A stretch of 38,248 nucleotides of DNA from Phycisphaerae bacterium (GTDB lineage: Bacteria; Planctomycetota; Phycisphaerae; UBA1845), in assembly GCA_030429365.1 (NCBI GenBank), contig JAUIEW010000017.1, forward strand, positions 1-38,248. Direction: 5' to 3'. Of the stretch, positions 3,169 through 38,248 are shown in pieces; position 1 is the stretch's first letter; every line of letters starts with the position of its first letter. The translations under genes and the position numbers were made by a program. The notes beneath the pieces are model-generated. The model saw only the letters and a program-made list of their open reading frames with translations, was not told the DNA's origin and ran no database searches.

Positions 3169-3202
3169 TGCACTCATAGAAAAGACTCGAATGTGCGCTA
3201 CC

Positions 3203-3229
3203 GTCACTCCCGCGAAAGCGGGAGTCCAG
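3203..3229. repeat. REP-like palindrome, copy 1
   Basis: A 27-base unit containing ACTCCCGC (3206-3213), a GAAA loop and GCGGGAGT (3218-3225), a perfect 8-bp hairpin with a GNRA-type loop. It matches the copy at 3370-3396, in opposite orientation, at 24 of 27 positions. It sits between two convergent genes. This sequence type (ATTCCCGC..GCGGGAAT) is a commonly seen dispersed extragenic palindrome in many bacteria. Confidence 0.75.
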
Positions 3230-3369
3230 AACGGGCGCTGACAAAAGCAATGGGCGTGGATTCCCACGTGCGCGTATCGATTGCGATCAAAACCCAAGCG
3301 TAGCGTCTTGCTCGTCTACTCTTCTCAGAACAAGCACCGGTACTCACCAAATTTGATTTTGGTTTTCCC

Positions 3370-3396
3370 CTGGATTCCCGCTTGCGCGGGAATGAC
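3370..3396. repeat. REP-like palindrome, copy 2 (inverted)
   Basis: ATTCCCGC (3374-3381), loop TTGC, GCGGGAAT (3386-3393). It is the inverted partner of the unit at 3203-3229, with 24 of 27 matches. The two copies could also pair with each other in RNA across about 140 bases. The 257-base gap holding them contains no gene. Confidence 0.75.
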
Positions 3397-3425
3397 GGCG
3401 CTTTATCTCCGCTACATCTGGTGCA

Positions 3426-11992: not shown

Positions 11993-14034
11993 GGGTGCCC
12001 CTTCTCCGCCCGCGTTTGAATCTTACGCGACATTTCTTCGAGCTTCGATTGTCGTTCTGCGGCGACGGACAGATTGCTGTTGATGTCGGCTTCGGTTTCA
12101 GAACCGTCCTTGCGGGCAGCGTCAGCCGTCGTCGTTTGGCGGTTGATTCGAAGCTGCGAACTCTTGAGCATTTTGAGTTCCGCCGACGTCGGAACCAATG
12201 GGGCATTGCCGCCCCCGCCTCCGCCGCCACCACCACCCTGGCGTTTCTTTTTCTTTTGCTCTTCGATCAACTTTTTGAGCGACTCTAGAAGTCGGCTTAG
12301 TTCGCGTTCGATGTCGGATTGCGTGCCCGTGGTGATCGGTCCCAATTCCGATTTGCCCAACCGTTCGGACACCATCTGCATGTCAGCCGTCAACTGCTCC
12401 ATGATCTGCGGGAACACGACCGTGGTTCCGTCTTCTTCCAGCAGCCGCACGCACATCTGTGCCGACTTGCCCAACTCGCCCTGCTTTTTCGCAAGCTCGT
12501 CGCACTTGAGTTTCTCGGCCCGGCGAAACAGCGCCTTGTCAAGCTCGGCCAACTTCAAGGTCTCGGCGTTGAGCCCCTTTTGAATCTCAAGCATCTCGGA
12601 GAGTCGCGCCTGCAACCCCATCAGAATGTCTTCCTGCTCCTCCTGGCGAAGTTGTTTGAGCGCTTCTTCCAACTCGCGCTGGGCACGCTCCAATTCATCA
12701 AGGGCTTTGTCCTCTTCAAGGACGGCTTGCTCAACATCCTCCTCGTCGAGTTCCTTGCCGGCATCTTCCATGTGCTTGCCCGCGCGATCGACGTTCTCTT
12801 CACCGGGCAGGGATTCATCTTTCTTGGATTGCTTGGACTCTTGGTCCCCTTGCTTCTGATCGCCGGATTCGTTTGGTTTGCCGTCCTGTTTTTCGCCCTG
12901 GTTCTCCTGGGGTTTGCCCTTGGGCTCGCCACCCTTTGGCGATTGCATTTTCTGCGACAGTTTCTTGGCTCGATCGGAGAGGTTGCGCTGTGCGTCGCCT
13001 GACTTGGCGGCATCGCGCTTCTGCTCCAGTTCCTTCTTGGCCTCCTCAAGTCGATGAAGGGCGCGTTTCAATTCTTCAGTCGCTTCCTTCTGTGCTTCCT
13101 TGGGATCTTGTTTGTCGGCAGAGGGCTTGCCGCTTTCTTGTTTACCTACTTCTGAGCCGGGTTCGCGTTTGGAATTGTTTTCCTGCTTCTCTTGGCTAGC
13201 AGCCTGCATCTTTTCAGAAGCCTTCTTCAGGTCCTTTGACGCTTCCTCGAGCATTTCCGCGGCTTTTTTGTTTTCGGATTCTTTCCCTGAGTCCGTTTCG
13301 TTGGCGTCGGACTCTGGATTCAGCGACTTGCTGATGTCGTCAACATCTTTGCTCAGCTTCTCTGTTTGCTCGCCAAGCTTCTCTTGCGACTCAGCATTCT
13401 CTTTGTTCTGCGCTTCGTCGGATGCATCGGTCTCTTGCGCCTGCTTCTGCAATTCCTCCTGCTCATTGAGAAGTTGCTGGGCCCGCTGGATCGCCGCGTC
13501 CACCTGCTTGGCCGCCCGGGCGGCTCGGATGGCGTCGGCTGCCTTCTTGCGCTGTTCTTTCTGTTCTTCGATCAACGTCTTGAGTTCACGCTTGGCTTCG
13601 CGAATTCGTTCCATCTTCTCCTTGCGGGCTTGATCATTGGGATTCTGATCAAGCAACACCATCAAGATCTTTTCGAAGTCAGCCGCCAACAATTCCTGTT
13701 CACTGGCGGCTTGGTTGAGACTCTGCGACGCCTCCAGCGCCGCGACGAGTCGCTGGACCCGCTCCTTCACTTCCAACTCGCCGGTGCGCGACAAAGCCTC
13801 GCCAAGTTTCTCCGCGTTTTCCGGTTCCACCTCAGCGAGTTTCTCGCGCAATCGGAACATGTGTTCCTCAAGTCGCGCGAGTCGGTCGAGAATCATCTGC
13901 TGCTTGGTCGCCAGCGCGTTGATCGGCCGATCGTCTCCACCCTGCTGTCCAAACGCATTTCGCGCAAGGGACATCAAAATGAGCGTGACGATCAGGCAGC
14001 CGATGCAGCTGATTTTTGTCTTCGTCGTCAACAT
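11989..14034 (-). CDS. Secreted long coiled-coil protein, very Lys/Glu/Gln-rich
   Basis: 681 residues from the ATG at 14034; the frame is open to a GTG at 14070, but the ATG has GGAAAG at suitable spacing and starts a good signal peptide (MLTTKTK, IGCLIVTLILMSLA, cleavage near AFG). The mature protein is nearly all charged helix: heptad-rich 50-220 and 420-600, and a low-complexity Lys/Glu/Ser/Gln section about 220-410. A run of ten glycines (about 618-627) separates the coil from the C-terminal helical region. Such proteins accompany DUF4175 membrane proteins, and in some genomes are fused to them. No enzymatic motif. Probable structural rod or tether in the periplasm. The next gene starts inside its stop codon. 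Confidence 0.8.
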   Translation of the reverse strand: MLTTKTKISCIGCLIVTLILMSLARNAFGQQGGDDRPINALATKQQMILDRLARLEEHMFRLREKLAEVEPENAEKLGEALSRTGELEVKERVQRLVAALEASQSLNQAASEQELLAADFEKILMVLLDQNPNDQARKEKMERIREAKRELKTLIEEQKEQRKKAADAIRAARAAKQVDAAIQRAQQLLNEQEELQKQAQETDASDEAQNKENAESQEKLGEQTEKLSKDVDDISKSLNPESDANETDSGKESENKKAAEMLEEASKDLKKASEKMQAASQEKQENNSKREPGSEVGKQESGKPSADKQDPKEAQKEATEELKRALHRLEEAKKELEQKRDAAKSGDAQRNLSDRAKKLSQKMQSPKGGEPKGKPQENQGEKQDGKPNESGDQKQGDQESKQSKKDESLPGEENVDRAGKHMEDAGKELDEEDVEQAVLEEDKALDELERAQRELEEALKQLRQEEQEDILMGLQARLSEMLEIQKGLNAETLKLAELDKALFRRAEKLKCDELAKKQGELGKSAQMCVRLLEEDGTTVVFPQIMEQLTADMQMVSERLGKSELGPITTGTQSDIERELSRLLESLKKLIEEQKKKKRQGGGGGGGGGGNAPLVPTSAELKMLKSSQLRINRQTTTADAARKDGSETEADINSNLSVAAERQSKLEEMSRKIQTRAEKGHP
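12208..12237 (-). repeat. Ten-glycine codon tract
   Basis: Thirty bases of GGN codons (GGT, GGC, GGA, GGG mixed) encode Gly10 in the coiled-coil protein. The varied third bases argue for selection on the glycine run and against simple slippage of one repeat unit. Confidence 0.7.
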
Positions 14035-33552: not shown

Positions 33553-35346
33553 GTGTTTTCAAACACCATGAAACTGCTGGGCGATCGTTTTCGCAGCGCG
33601 GTCCGATCGTCATTTGGCGATGACTGCCCGTTTGACGATCAATGGATCAAACCTTGCAACGATCCGCGCTTTGGCGATTACCAGTTCAACGGCGCTCTGC
33701 CGTTGGCCAAGTCGCTGCAAAAGAAACCGCGCGACATCGCCGAGACGCTGGCTGGCTGTGTTGAACTCGCAGACATCTCCGCGCCGCTTGAAATCGCAGG
33801 CCCCGGTTTTCTCAATATCCGCCTGACCAATGCATACCTTTCAAACGCATTGACGTCGATACCAGCCGGTGAGACGTCGGAATACGATCGCCTCGGTCTG
33901 CAATTCGACGAAGCGGTTGAGACTGTCGTGGTGGACATGTCGAGTCCGAACCTCGCGAAGGAGATGCACGTCGGTCATCTTCGCAGCACGGTGATCGGCG
34001 AAAGCGTTTCGCGCATTTTGGAATTCGCCGGGCACACCGTCGAACGCGTCAACCACGTGGGCGATTGGGGCACGCAATTCGGTATGTTGATCACGCACTT
34101 GCGCGATGTTCAGCCGGACGTCATCAGCGATCCGGATTCGCTGGCGATTGGCGACCTTGAAGCGTTTTATGTCGCCGCAAAGAAGGCGTTTGACGGCAGC
34201 GAAGAGTTTGCCAACCGCGCCCGGCAAGCCGTCGTGCAGTTGCAGGGCGGTGATGAAGAAACACTGGCTGTCTGGCGTGCGTTTTGCGATGAGTCGCTGC
34301 GTCATTGCCACGCGATTTACGATCGATTGGGAATCACCAAGCTCGAAGATCGCGGCGAAAGTTTCTACAACGATCAGTTGGCGCCGACGGTTCAGGAATT
34401 GACCGATGCGGGCATGGTCGAAACCAGCGACGGAGCCGAGTGCATCTTCCTCGACGATTTCAAGAACCGCGACGGTGAACCGCTGCCGATGATCGTTCGC
34501 AAATCCGACGGCGGATTCAATTACTCCGCGACCGACCTTGCGGCTGTCCGACATCGTCTGCGCGACATAGGGGCGACGCGGTTGATTTACGTCGTCGGCA
34601 TTCCGCAGCAGCAACACTTCGCGATGCTCTTCGCCGCGATCCGCAAGTCGGGTTGGGCGGCAGATAGCGTCCGCCTCGAACATCTTGCGTTCGGCAGCAT
34701 GCTGGGGCGCGACGGCAAACCCTTCAAGACGCGTGAAGGTGGGACGGTGAAGCTCAAGAATCTGCTCGAAGAGGCTGTGCAAGCCGCCCGGGCAGCGATT
34801 GACCAACGGCAGGGCGATGACGACGATCGCTCGTTAAGCGAATCGCAAAAGCAAACCATCAGCGAAGCCGTCGGAATCGGAGCCGTCAAGTATGCCGACC
34901 TGTCGCACTCGCTGACGACCGACTATCGCTTCGACATGGAGCAGATGCTTTCGTTCGAGGGCAACACCGCGCCATACATGCTCTACGCATACGCCCGAAT
35001 TCGAAGCATCGGTCGAAAAGCGGATATCGACCTCGACGCACTGCCATCAGACGCGCCAATCACCATCGAACACGACGCCGAAATCGCTCTGGCCAAGATG
35101 ATCACGCGCTTCCCCGAAGTTATCAGCCAGATCGTTCGCGACCTTCGACCGAACGTGCTAACCGAATACCTCTACGAGTTGTCGAAGGCGTTTAGCCGCT
35201 TCTACGATCGTCGCCACGGCGTCCGCGTCACCGACGCCGAACCCGAATCCACACGCATGTCGCGCTTGCGCCTATGCCAGATCACCGCCCGAACCATCAA
35301 GTCGGGCTTGTATCTATTGGGCATCGACACGATCGAGCAGATGTGA
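33553..35346 (+). CDS. argS: Arginyl-tRNA synthetase
   Basis: 597 residues. The GTG at 33553 is chosen because GAAGG lies 6 bases upstream; ATG at 33568 is the alternative. Charges tRNA-Arg with arginine. Visible: the N-terminal Arg-tRNA synthetase domain (NGALPLAKSLQKKPRDIAE, PGFLNIRL), the class I signature SSPNLAKEMHVGHLRST (HIGH site, HVGH), NHVGDWGTQFGML, YVVGIPQQQHF, the GRDGKPFKTREGGTV segment that replaces KMSKS in this enzyme, and the C-terminal anticodon-binding helical domain (AKMITRFPEVI, YLYELSKAFSRFYD, RLCQITARTIKSGLYLLGI). Length and motif order are normal. Confidence 0.97.
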   Translation: MFSNTMKLLGDRFRSAVRSSFGDDCPFDDQWIKPCNDPRFGDYQFNGALPLAKSLQKKPRDIAETLAGCVELADISAPLEIAGPGFLNIRLTNAYLSNALTSIPAGETSEYDRLGLQFDEAVETVVVDMSSPNLAKEMHVGHLRSTVIGESVSRILEFAGHTVERVNHVGDWGTQFGMLITHLRDVQPDVISDPDSLAIGDLEAFYVAAKKAFDGSEEFANRARQAVVQLQGGDEETLAVWRAFCDESLRHCHAIYDRLGITKLEDRGESFYNDQLAPTVQELTDAGMVETSDGAECIFLDDFKNRDGEPLPMIVRKSDGGFNYSATDLAAVRHRLRDIGATRLIYVVGIPQQQHFAMLFAAIRKSGWAADSVRLEHLAFGSMLGRDGKPFKTREGGTVKLKNLLEEAVQAARAAIDQRQGDDDDRSLSESQKQTISEAVGIGAVKYADLSHSLTTDYRFDMEQMLSFEGNTAPYMLYAYARIRSIGRKADIDLDALPSDAPITIEHDAEIALAKMITRFPEVISQIVRDLRPNVLTEYLYELSKAFSRFYDRRHGVRVTDAEPESTRMSRLRLCQITARTIKSGLYLLGIDTIEQM

Positions 35347-35364: not shown

Positions 35365-35438
35365 GTGCCACTGCTCTGTGAGCAGTGCAGTCAAAGTTCA
35401 ATGCCAACCGGTCGACACTGCTCACAGAGCAGTGGCAC
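35365..35438. repeat. Paired-palindrome element (23-bp perfect inverted repeat)
   Basis: Arms 35365-35387 and 35416-35438 are perfect reverse complements separated by 28 bases. Each arm contains a smaller palindrome, CACTGCTC-TGT-GAGCAGTG or its complement. It lies between the convergent ends of argS and the kinase gene. Its sequence is unrelated to the elements at 3203 and 33450 but the layout is the same. May serve as a bidirectional transcript end. Confidence 0.85.
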
Positions 35439-35458: not shown

Positions 35459-38248
35459 CTAGTTCTGCTTGGTCGTCTCGGCCAAGTGCTTATAAAGGCT
35501 CTGGTGGGGGTGGGGTTGTTGGGTGATTTCGATGGAGCGCTTTAGGCATTGGACGGCGCTGTCTTTTTCGCCGGCTAGTTCGTGGGCTCTTGCTTTTTGT
35601 TCCCAGGCGTCGGCTTCCATGCGGCGGTTGTTGTGCTTCTGAGCCAACGTCAGACGCTGGTTGATGGCGTCGAGTGCTGAATCGGTCTTGCCCTCCTGCA
35701 GGTACATTTCCGCGAGGTGTTCGTACACCATCGTCAGGCCGTTCCAGAAATTCGTGCCATTGAGCGCGGTCAGCGCCTCGTCAAAACACGCTTCGGCTTC
35801 GGCGTAATCGTTCATCAAACACGCGCAGCGCCCGAGGTTCATGTGCGACACGCCGATGTTGACGCGATCCCCGACTTCATTGGCGAGCCCCAACGCCCGG
35901 CGATAATACTCTGCCGCCTCCGCATAGCGCTGCTGCTTGAGGAGCACACCCCCCATGCCGTTGTATGGCCAAGCCAATGAAACCACGTCGCGGTATTTCT
36001 TGTGAATGTCGATGGCCCGCGCGAACGCCCGTTCGGCGTCCTCGAAGTGCTTCAACCGCATCAACACGAACCCAAGGTTGCCTTCGTACTTCGCCGTGTC
36101 GGAATGCTGTTCCAACTCGATGGTCAGGTCCCGGGCTTTTTCAAGAAACTCATACGCCGACGTGTATTCGCCCTGGTAGTAATACATCACGCCAAGGTTG
36201 CCGAGTGCTTCAGCCACCCGACGTTGATCTCCGTCATGGCGGGCGGCGACTTCCTCGCGGCGGTGAAATTCAAGCGCGCGATCGTAGTCGCCGGTTCGCG
36301 CGTAAGCCGCGCCGATCAAGCTGACCGCGTCGATGTATTGCTCGTCGATTTCGAGCGCCTCGTTGCAAAGTTTGATCGCCGACGAGTAACTGGCTTCTGC
36401 GTAGGCCAACCGCGCTTTGATGAATTTTTCGTGGGCTTCGAGGTTTTCCGTGCCGGCTGTGTGAACTTTCCCGCCGGTGCGAACGCTGCGATGGGCGCCG
36501 ATGGCATCGATCACCTTCGCCGCCAGTTGATCCTCCAGCGTGAAGAGGTCTTCGATATTTCCGACGATATCCGCCGAGAAGCTCGGTTGCGCCGCTCCCG
36601 ACCGGCTGACCGATCGGGCGATGATCCGCAACTTGTCACCGGTTCGCTGGTACGTGCCCACGATGACGGTTGCCGCGCCGAGCATTTCGGCTGAATCAAG
36701 CAGGCGATTCTCATCGTGCACATCGATCGCGGCTCCCCGTTCCTTTCCGAGCAGTTTCGACAATCCGTGTCGATCGACCACGTGCAGCCCGTCGAGATCC
36801 AGCAGGCGAGCGCTGAGAAATTCGGCGACGGCTTCACCGATCCAATCATCGGAAGGGTGTCGCGACATATTCTCGAACGCTGAGACAACAACCCCGACCG
36901 GCGACGACGCATCGGCAGACTGGGGGACCAGCGCGGTGACATCGACTCCGCAGCGCAGCGCTTCGCTGAGTTTCTCCGCGTTTTCAAAACGGTGTTCGGG
37001 GCGCTTGGCCAGGCACACTTCGATGACGTTGCGCAGCCAGCCGGGTGACGATCGCGTGATGTCTTCGGGCCAGATGACCGGATCATGCTTGTGCCGGTTG
37101 GACAGTTCGATGACGCCGGACCCACGGAAGGGTGGTTTGCCGCAAAGCAGGTGATACATGCTCGCCCCGAGGCTGTAGAGGTCGGCTCGGTGCGTCAGGT
37201 GGTTGTCACCGTCGAACTGCTCGGGGGCCATGTAATATGGCGTGCCGAGAATCTGACCGTCGCAGGTGAGGGCCATGTCGCCTTCGAGGCCTTTGATCTT
37301 GACCAGCCCGAGGTCGGTGATCTTCGCCACCCCGTTGGCCGCGAGCATTATGTTGCTCGGTTTGATGTCGCGATGGATCAGGTCTGCCGCATGGATCGCG
37401 ATTAAGCCGTTGGCGATCTGCACGCCGATTTCGACGACCTGCTGCCAGCACATCGCCCCGACGGCATTGAGCATTTTCCGCAGGTTTTCGCCCTCGATGT
37501 ACTCCATGGCGAAGTACCAGGTGTCGTCCACGCAGTCGCAGTCGAGGACCTTGGCCACGTTCTGATGGGCGATGAGCGCCCCCGCACGGGCTTCGGCTTG
37601 GAGGCGGGCGGTGGCGAGTTCGCGCCATTCGTCCTGGGTAACGATGATTTTGAGGATGCAGATCTGGTCGAGGTGGCAGTGGTGGGCGAGGAGAATCCGC
37701 CCCTGGGCACCGTTGGCGACGGCTCGGATGATGCGGTAGCGGTCGGACCGGACCTTGGGCCAGGCTTCGCCAACCGCGTCGAACAATGCGGTTCCAACCG
37801 CCACATGGCCACCCGCCGAATTGCCAGCGACCGCAATACGTGCCGGATCGATCCCCAAGGCGACGGCGTGGCGTCGCAAGTAGCGAACGGCCGCACGGCC
37901 ATCGCGAACGCAGTCAAACACCGTTGTTCCTGGGCCGGAACCCAGCAAGCGGTACTCCAAGCTCGCTCCTACCATGCCGAGGCGGGCAAAGCGGTCCGCG
38001 ATCGGGTAGGAACGCCGCGGGTTGCCGCCCGTCCATCCGCCACCGTGGATCACGAGCAACACGGGACGGCGATCGGTCGGCCGATGGCCATCAGGCTCGA
38101 ATAGATGGAGCCGCAACGAACGCTCACCGACAGATCGGTAGACAACCGTCCGCGTTGGCTCGAGCTTGGCAGCGAGGGGGTCAAGCGGTCGGGCCACCTG
38201 GCCGACTGCCGGTTGGCAAGCCAAGCCGATCGCGGCAACGATCAATAG
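35459..38248 (-). CDS. Ser/Thr protein kinase with TolB-like and TPR regions, fused to a half alpha/beta hydrolase (start outside window)
   Basis: At least 929 residues; the frame is open to the window edge and the TTG at 38245 is probably internal. Numbering from that TTG: end of a signal peptide (AAIGLACQPAVGQ), then the front of an esterase/lipase with oxyanion motif HGGGW (67-71) and nucleophile GNSAGGH (141-147, Ser143). The hydrolase stops near residue 162, before its catalytic Asp and His. A full kinase domain follows at once: YRIIRAVANGAQGR, Lys199 in CILKII, Glu218, HRDIKPSN (291-298), DLG (311-313), GTPYYMAPEQ. Next are a TolB/FlgO-like segment (about 450-600, VGVVVSAFENMS, LHVVDRHGLSKLL) and about eight TPRs to the end. 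The kinase needs cytoplasmic ATP while the front half is built for export, so the junction near 37750 may be a chimera of assembly or recombination. Confidence 0.85.
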   Translation of the reverse strand, partial: LLIVAAIGLACQPAVGQVARPLDPLAAKLEPTRTVVYRSVGERSLRLHLFEPDGHRPTDRRPVLLVIHGGGWTGGNPRRSYPIADRFARLGMVGASLEYRLLGSGPGTTVFDCVRDGRAAVRYLRRHAVALGIDPARIAVAGNSAGGHVAVGTALFDAVGEAWPKVRSDRYRIIRAVANGAQGRILLAHHCHLDQICILKIIVTQDEWRELATARLQAEARAGALIAHQNVAKVLDCDCVDDTWYFAMEYIEGENLRKMLNAVGAMCWQQVVEIGVQIANGLIAIHAADLIHRDIKPSNIMLAANGVAKITDLGLVKIKGLEGDMALTCDGQILGTPYYMAPEQFDGDNHLTHRADLYSLGASMYHLLCGKPPFRGSGVIELSNRHKHDPVIWPEDITRSSPGWLRNVIEVCLAKRPEHRFENAEKLSEALRCGVDVTALVPQSADASSPVGVVVSAFENMSRHPSDDWIGEAVAEFLSARLLDLDGLHVVDRHGLSKLLGKERGAAIDVHDENRLLDSAEMLGAATVIVGTYQRTGDKLRIIARSVSRSGAAQPSFSADIVGNIEDLFTLEDQLAAKVIDAIGAHRSVRTGGKVHTAGTENLEAHEKFIKARLAYAEASYSSAIKLCNEALEIDEQYIDAVSLIGAAYARTGDYDRALEFHRREEVAARHDGDQRRVAEALGNLGVMYYYQGEYTSAYEFLEKARDLTIELEQHSDTAKYEGNLGFVLMRLKHFEDAERAFARAIDIHKKYRDVVSLAWPYNGMGGVLLKQQRYAEAAEYYRRALGLANEVGDRVNIGVSHMNLGRCACLMNDYAEAEACFDEALTALNGTNFWNGLTMVYEHLAEMYLQEGKTDSALDAINQRLTLAQKHNNRRMEADAWEQKARAHELAGEKDSAVQCLKRSIEITQQPHPHQSLYKHLAETTKQN

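Follow-up and report, generated by a model that had tools for sequence, protein, structure and literature searches.

The end of this contig raises the question of whether an exported esterase and a Ser/Thr kinase have really become a single gene. The window, that is, the whole stretch of 38,248 bases analysed here, is a complete contig (C36) of a draft genome in 455 contigs (G000). An earlier note had described there, without giving a strand, the front half of a secreted esterase joined in frame to a kinase, and as far as the printed sequence goes this was confirmed: a frame of 929 residues on the minus strand (38248..35459), with its 5' end open at the contig edge, encodes an esterase front half followed by a Ser/Thr kinase with TPRs. 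In a Pfam search of the frame (best 25 of the 31 families listed), BD-FAE was detected at residues 58–155, Abhydrolase_3 at residues 64–155, Pkinase at residues 172–425 and several TPR models, above their cut-offs, C-terminal to Pkinase. The kinase domain spans profile positions 2–256 of 263 and, as the note had claimed, is complete; at the domain-profile level it is accompanied by C-terminal TPRs. The BD-FAE match covers positions 10–108 of 215, the front half only, and a complete BD-FAE or Abhydrolase_3 fold with Ser, Asp and His is not present in the window. Both the HGGGW and GNSAGGH motifs were found in the frame, followed by no stop up to ALFDAVGEAWPKVRSDRYRIIRAVANGAQG. The printed frame begins within a stretch resembling a signal peptide, ahead of which the intact relative at locus L061 has MTTPMNRHA.

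We have little doubt that the apparent fusion is a chimeric contig end and not a gene fusion, and we infer that the join was made in the library or by the assembler, not in a cell. The observations behind this reading are a foreign tail, a full-length esterase elsewhere, the kinase's own front end on a second contig of the assembly (C26) and a gene order conserved in congeners. Coordinates of the relevant features are collected in Table 1.

Table 1. Features around the apparent esterase–kinase joint (window coordinates).
Feature	Position	Strand	Evidence
Foreign tail: front half of an alpha/beta-hydrolase (BD-FAE/Abhydrolase_3) esterase gene from a distant bacterium, with signal-peptide-like start	37771..38248	-	474/478 vs JAUIHJ010000583.1 (L061:2677-3154)
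Joint	37771..37789	-	19/19 vs foreign esterase; 15/19 vs G001 kinase gene
Host kinase gene, genuine part (own N-terminal segment missing from the contig)	35459..37785	-	Amino acid identity to G001, G002 and G004; Pfam
Ser/Thr kinase domain	about 37735-36974	-	Pfam
argS, adjoining the kinase gene	33553..35346	+	98% identical in G001

The best match of the tail, among 78 loci from genome_contigs, was the contig of the MAG Co_bin.204 that carries locus L061. The identity ends at window position 37771. The two sequences differ at four positions, all of them synonymous, and the tail therefore derives from a strain variant and not from the identical template. In L061 the esterase is full length, with a BD-FAE match over profile positions 10–213 of 215 as compared with the truncated match of the window. 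When 30 genomes including G000 were searched with the tail at E ≤ 1e-10, matches were obtained in 10, G000 among them, those outside G000 sharing 30–43% identity, and all four same-genus genomes (4/4) were without any match at this threshold. The remainder of L061 was not found in G000 in a DNA search with all its 5,527 bases as query (E ≤ 0.001), which returned the tail only, nor was the second half or any other piece of the esterase found there by protein search. Viral contigs were also considered as a source of the tail and rejected, since none of the 12 stretches that matched a pattern encodes a relative.

The regions HGTADTVTP and GGKHGY, which we take to contain the catalytic Asp and His, respectively, were aligned in six esterase loci (L061, L062, L066, L067, L070 and L072; the motif filter left out L024, L063, L064, L065 and L069). 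The corresponding stretches are missing from the window frame, in agreement with the earlier description of a hydrolase devoid of its Asp and His. Altogether 90 esterase loci were considered, 12 from the 30-genome tail search and 78 from genome_contigs. An esterase-like frame was recognized in 88 of them (phmmer, E ≤ 1e-5), two loci being without one, and none of the 89 esterase-like ORFs matched the kinase. Loci L072 and L123 do contain a kinase-like ORF, as a frame distinct from that of the esterase. At L062, a Pirellulaceae MAG locus, the esterase frame extends into a further long stretch. Judging from ArgS, which shares 44–45% identity between Co_bin.204 and the window and 98% between G001 and the window, Co_bin.204 is a distant bacterium relative to G000. 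A near copy of the kinase gene was not found in Co_bin.204 by DNA search, which gave short matches only, at 70–86% identity (40 of 69 candidates scored).

As to the kinase side, a whole-protein search of 100 genomes, G000 included, gave as best matches outside G000, among the matches listed, those of the same genus, with 96% (G001), 91% (G002) and 89% (G004) amino acid identity, starting at frame residues 153, 152 and 148, respectively. A further congener, G003, showed a partial match (87% over residues 152–348) in a frame of 274 residues, outside the inspected loci. Apart from the copy of G000 itself, none of the matches listed in this search of 100 genomes (G000 among them) began before residue 142. 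By BLAST, the window is collinear with G001 (locus L004) through the kinase gene and most of argS at 92% DNA identity, and the kinase side is therefore native to G000; argS lies beside the kinase gene in G001 too, in the same order as in the window. The two sides of the joint match different genomes, each of them continuous past it: Co_bin.204 (at L061) for the esterase, and G001, G002 and G004 for the kinase.

The kinase of G001 starts with MTRETMLEMTWTCPHCKGS...CDACKF...STWREQAALFDAVGESWPKV, a layout identical in G002 and G004. C36 lacks this N-terminal segment, which in G001 comprises about 56 residues, from the MTRETM methionine to ALFDAVGE. Nineteen kinase relatives outside G000 were inspected (L004–L022), two of which, L013 and L019, are cut by contig ends. 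Two CxxC motifs were present in the N-terminal segment of all the relatives that reach the N-terminus (17/17), and no esterase match was found in the kinase frames of these 17 relatives with a complete start. Since ORFs in the relatives were taken from stop to stop, some of the N-terminal residues displayed precede the real start. By eye, the two-CxxC segment, lying ahead of the kinase domain, looks zinc-ribbon-like; Pfam listed nothing for it in G001 at E ≤ 0.001. In the middle region of the G001 orthologue a FlgO match was obtained at 22.4 bits, against a Pfam cut-off of 22.6.

The displaced continuation of the kinase gene was found in the same assembly. G000 was searched with a 12-kb stretch of G001 that extends upstream from the kinase start. 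The match to C36 covers query bases 1–304 and ends there, while C26 matches from query base 355, corresponding to its own base 1. Indeed, the first bases of C26 encode the native kinase N-terminus, MTRDTMLEMTWTCPHCHGS...CKF (translation: MTRDTMLEMTWTCPHCHGSDALPSAIDTNLVTCEGCKF). The next gene upstream, coding for a protein of 189 residues, adjoins the kinase start in C26 as it does in G001, G002 and G004. Because the matches of the G001 query are split at 304/355 and the order with the 189-residue gene is conserved, C26 and C36 are most likely chromosomal neighbours, about 50 bp apart according to the spacing in G001, and it is most likely the place of this interval that the C36 tail occupies. 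These about 50 bp of the G000 kinase gene are absent from both contigs.

The earlier note had placed the transition near 37735–37760. Position 37735 does mark the start of the Pkinase match; the joint itself lies upstream of it in the frame, in the 19 bases given in Table 1, of which the 15 shared with the G001 kinase gene were counted by eye on the alignment. This similarity is due to the resemblance between TALFDAVDEA of the esterase and AALFDAVGES of the G001 kinase, both genes encoding ALFDAV(D/G)E at the joint, and it can explain why the join is in frame. A short chance similarity of this kind would be a natural site at which the template could switch or the assembler take a wrong path. 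Moreover, the 478 bases of the tail would be on the order of one sequencing or library fragment, and about one random join in three would be expected to preserve the frame. Composition on the two sides of the joint had been suggested as a check. The GC content is modestly higher in the tail (66%) than in the kinase gene (60%) or in the window without the tail (58%), but a clear break is absent: GC3 in the tail is 0.69, at the low edge of the 0.69–0.84 observed along the frame. With a modest GC rise and GC3 within the range of the frame, composition was discarded as a marker of the chimera.

The sequence of events would then be as follows. In the organism, the kinase gene would comprise, in this order, the two-CxxC segment, the kinase domain, the middle region and the TPRs, and the esterase gene would belong to another, distantly related bacterium. 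Library preparation or assembly would have linked part of the esterase gene with the kinase gene across about 19 bases of chance similarity, and the contig would have ended 478 bases beyond the join. The assembly chimera, which the earlier note had called a serious alternative, is in fact the best supported explanation, given the foreign tail, the intact esterase in a distant genome and the kinase start on C26. The gene fusion that it had put forward is not borne out, the tail and the kinase start being both accounted for elsewhere and no such fusion turning up among the relatives searched; nor was an orthologous fusion encountered in related genomes, either among the matches listed for the 100 genomes searched by protein (including G000) or in the 90 esterase loci. 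With the chimera favoured, the capture of a dead domain and the "unusual routing" of the protein are therefore left with nothing to explain.

A real and very recent fusion, in which the kinase gene of the cell line acquired esterase DNA of a distant bacterium by recombination and had its own start replaced or displaced, appears very improbable. No stop interrupts the frame at the joint, recombination by micro-homology in cells would also make use of a short shared word, and the four synonymous differences show that the tail and L061 do not simply represent one molecule. However, G000 retains the native 5' end of the kinase gene, at the extremity of C26 and in conserved gene order; the insertion would have had to place half a gene precisely at a contig break that lies 478 bases from the end of the contig; and neither the second esterase half in G000 nor any such fusion in the relatives examined was found. 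A real fusion would require half a gene, the breaks between contigs and the kinase's own front end to fall together by chance. There is likewise a very slight chance that a fraction of the population carries a recent transfer, by which the start of a foreign exported esterase replaced the N-terminal segment of the kinase, the rest of the population keeping the native gene, hence C26; if this were true, the kinase would be addressed to the membrane or periplasm.

An established family of esterase–kinase fusions, with the dead hydrolase serving as a sensor domain, is scarcely credible. The printed frame of the window, taken alone, would suggest it, but the search of 100 genomes (G000 included) listed no match before residue 142 other than that of G000 itself, the relatives with a complete start have the two-CxxC N-terminus without exception (17/17), and no esterase-like ORF (0/89) matches the kinase. 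Furthermore, the tail shares 99% identity with an esterase that is full length and stands alone, the differences being all synonymous, and therefore shows no sign of hydrolase decay. That the window is correct and the Co_bin.204 contig chimeric can be virtually dismissed, since L061, short as it is and with a low coverage given in its title (cov 0.81), holds an esterase that aligns over its full length with five other loci, Asp and His regions included, the ORFs in the 88 of 90 loci holding an esterase-like one do not match the kinase, and the native kinase start on C26 would be left unexplained.

Metagenome assembly is known to produce chimeric contigs, as described in two reports (PMC7881036, PMC8171044), and what likens the present case to such interspecies contigs is that two genomes are joined at a shared word. 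In PMC8171044, chimeric nodes are stretches shared by two evolutionarily similar species; here, on the contrary, the two species are only distantly related and the stretch in common, between unrelated genes, is short (no more than about 19 bases visible), and a library (PCR) chimera is therefore as plausible as an assembler error. The order Pkinase and then C-terminal TPRs, found in the window kinase, is the layout of many Planctomycetota kinases according to PMC11032199, where many of the kinases span the membrane. To that layout the present family adds the two-CxxC N-terminal segment (17/17) and, in G001, the sub-cut-off FlgO match. With BD-FAE and Abhydrolase_3 esterases (PF20434, PF07859) the window tail has in common the HGGG and GNSAGG motifs; the full-length relatives have the Asp and His regions, whereas the window holds the front half only.

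Other features were observed along the window. A perfect 23-base inverted repeat (GTGCCACTGCTC... / ...GAGCAGTGGCAC) lies at 35365-35387 and 35416-35438, between argS and the 3' end of the kinase gene; it is also present in G001 at the equivalent place and was not found in the G002 and G004 stretches, searched for the short motif on the + strand of the locus. It may represent a two-way terminator or a small mobile repeat. Window positions 3201-3274 and 3280-3421, as well as L036:6651-6738, carry a dispersed repeat whose palindromic core is of the type CGTCATTCCCGC..GCGGGAATCCAGG. In G000 it has at least 40 short matches (40 of 44 in the search with the G001 query; 40 of 154 candidates scored), one of which is the window copy, and many short matches were seen in G001, G002 and G004 as well. 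Finally, the AT skew of the region 12001–14000 is strong (-0.36 and -0.39) relative to that elsewhere in the window.

The case is a caution that two ordinary genes of different bacteria can yield an in-frame two-domain protein at a contig end. The question was nearly settled, with no recourse to reads, by seeking the missing partner of each half within the assembly itself and in further genomes. The fusion protein should stay out of databases, and the terminal 478 bases of the contig are best regarded as foreign. As for the parent genes, they probably encode an ordinary exported hydrolase and an equally ordinary Ser/Thr kinase whose TPRs would be its partner-binding part.
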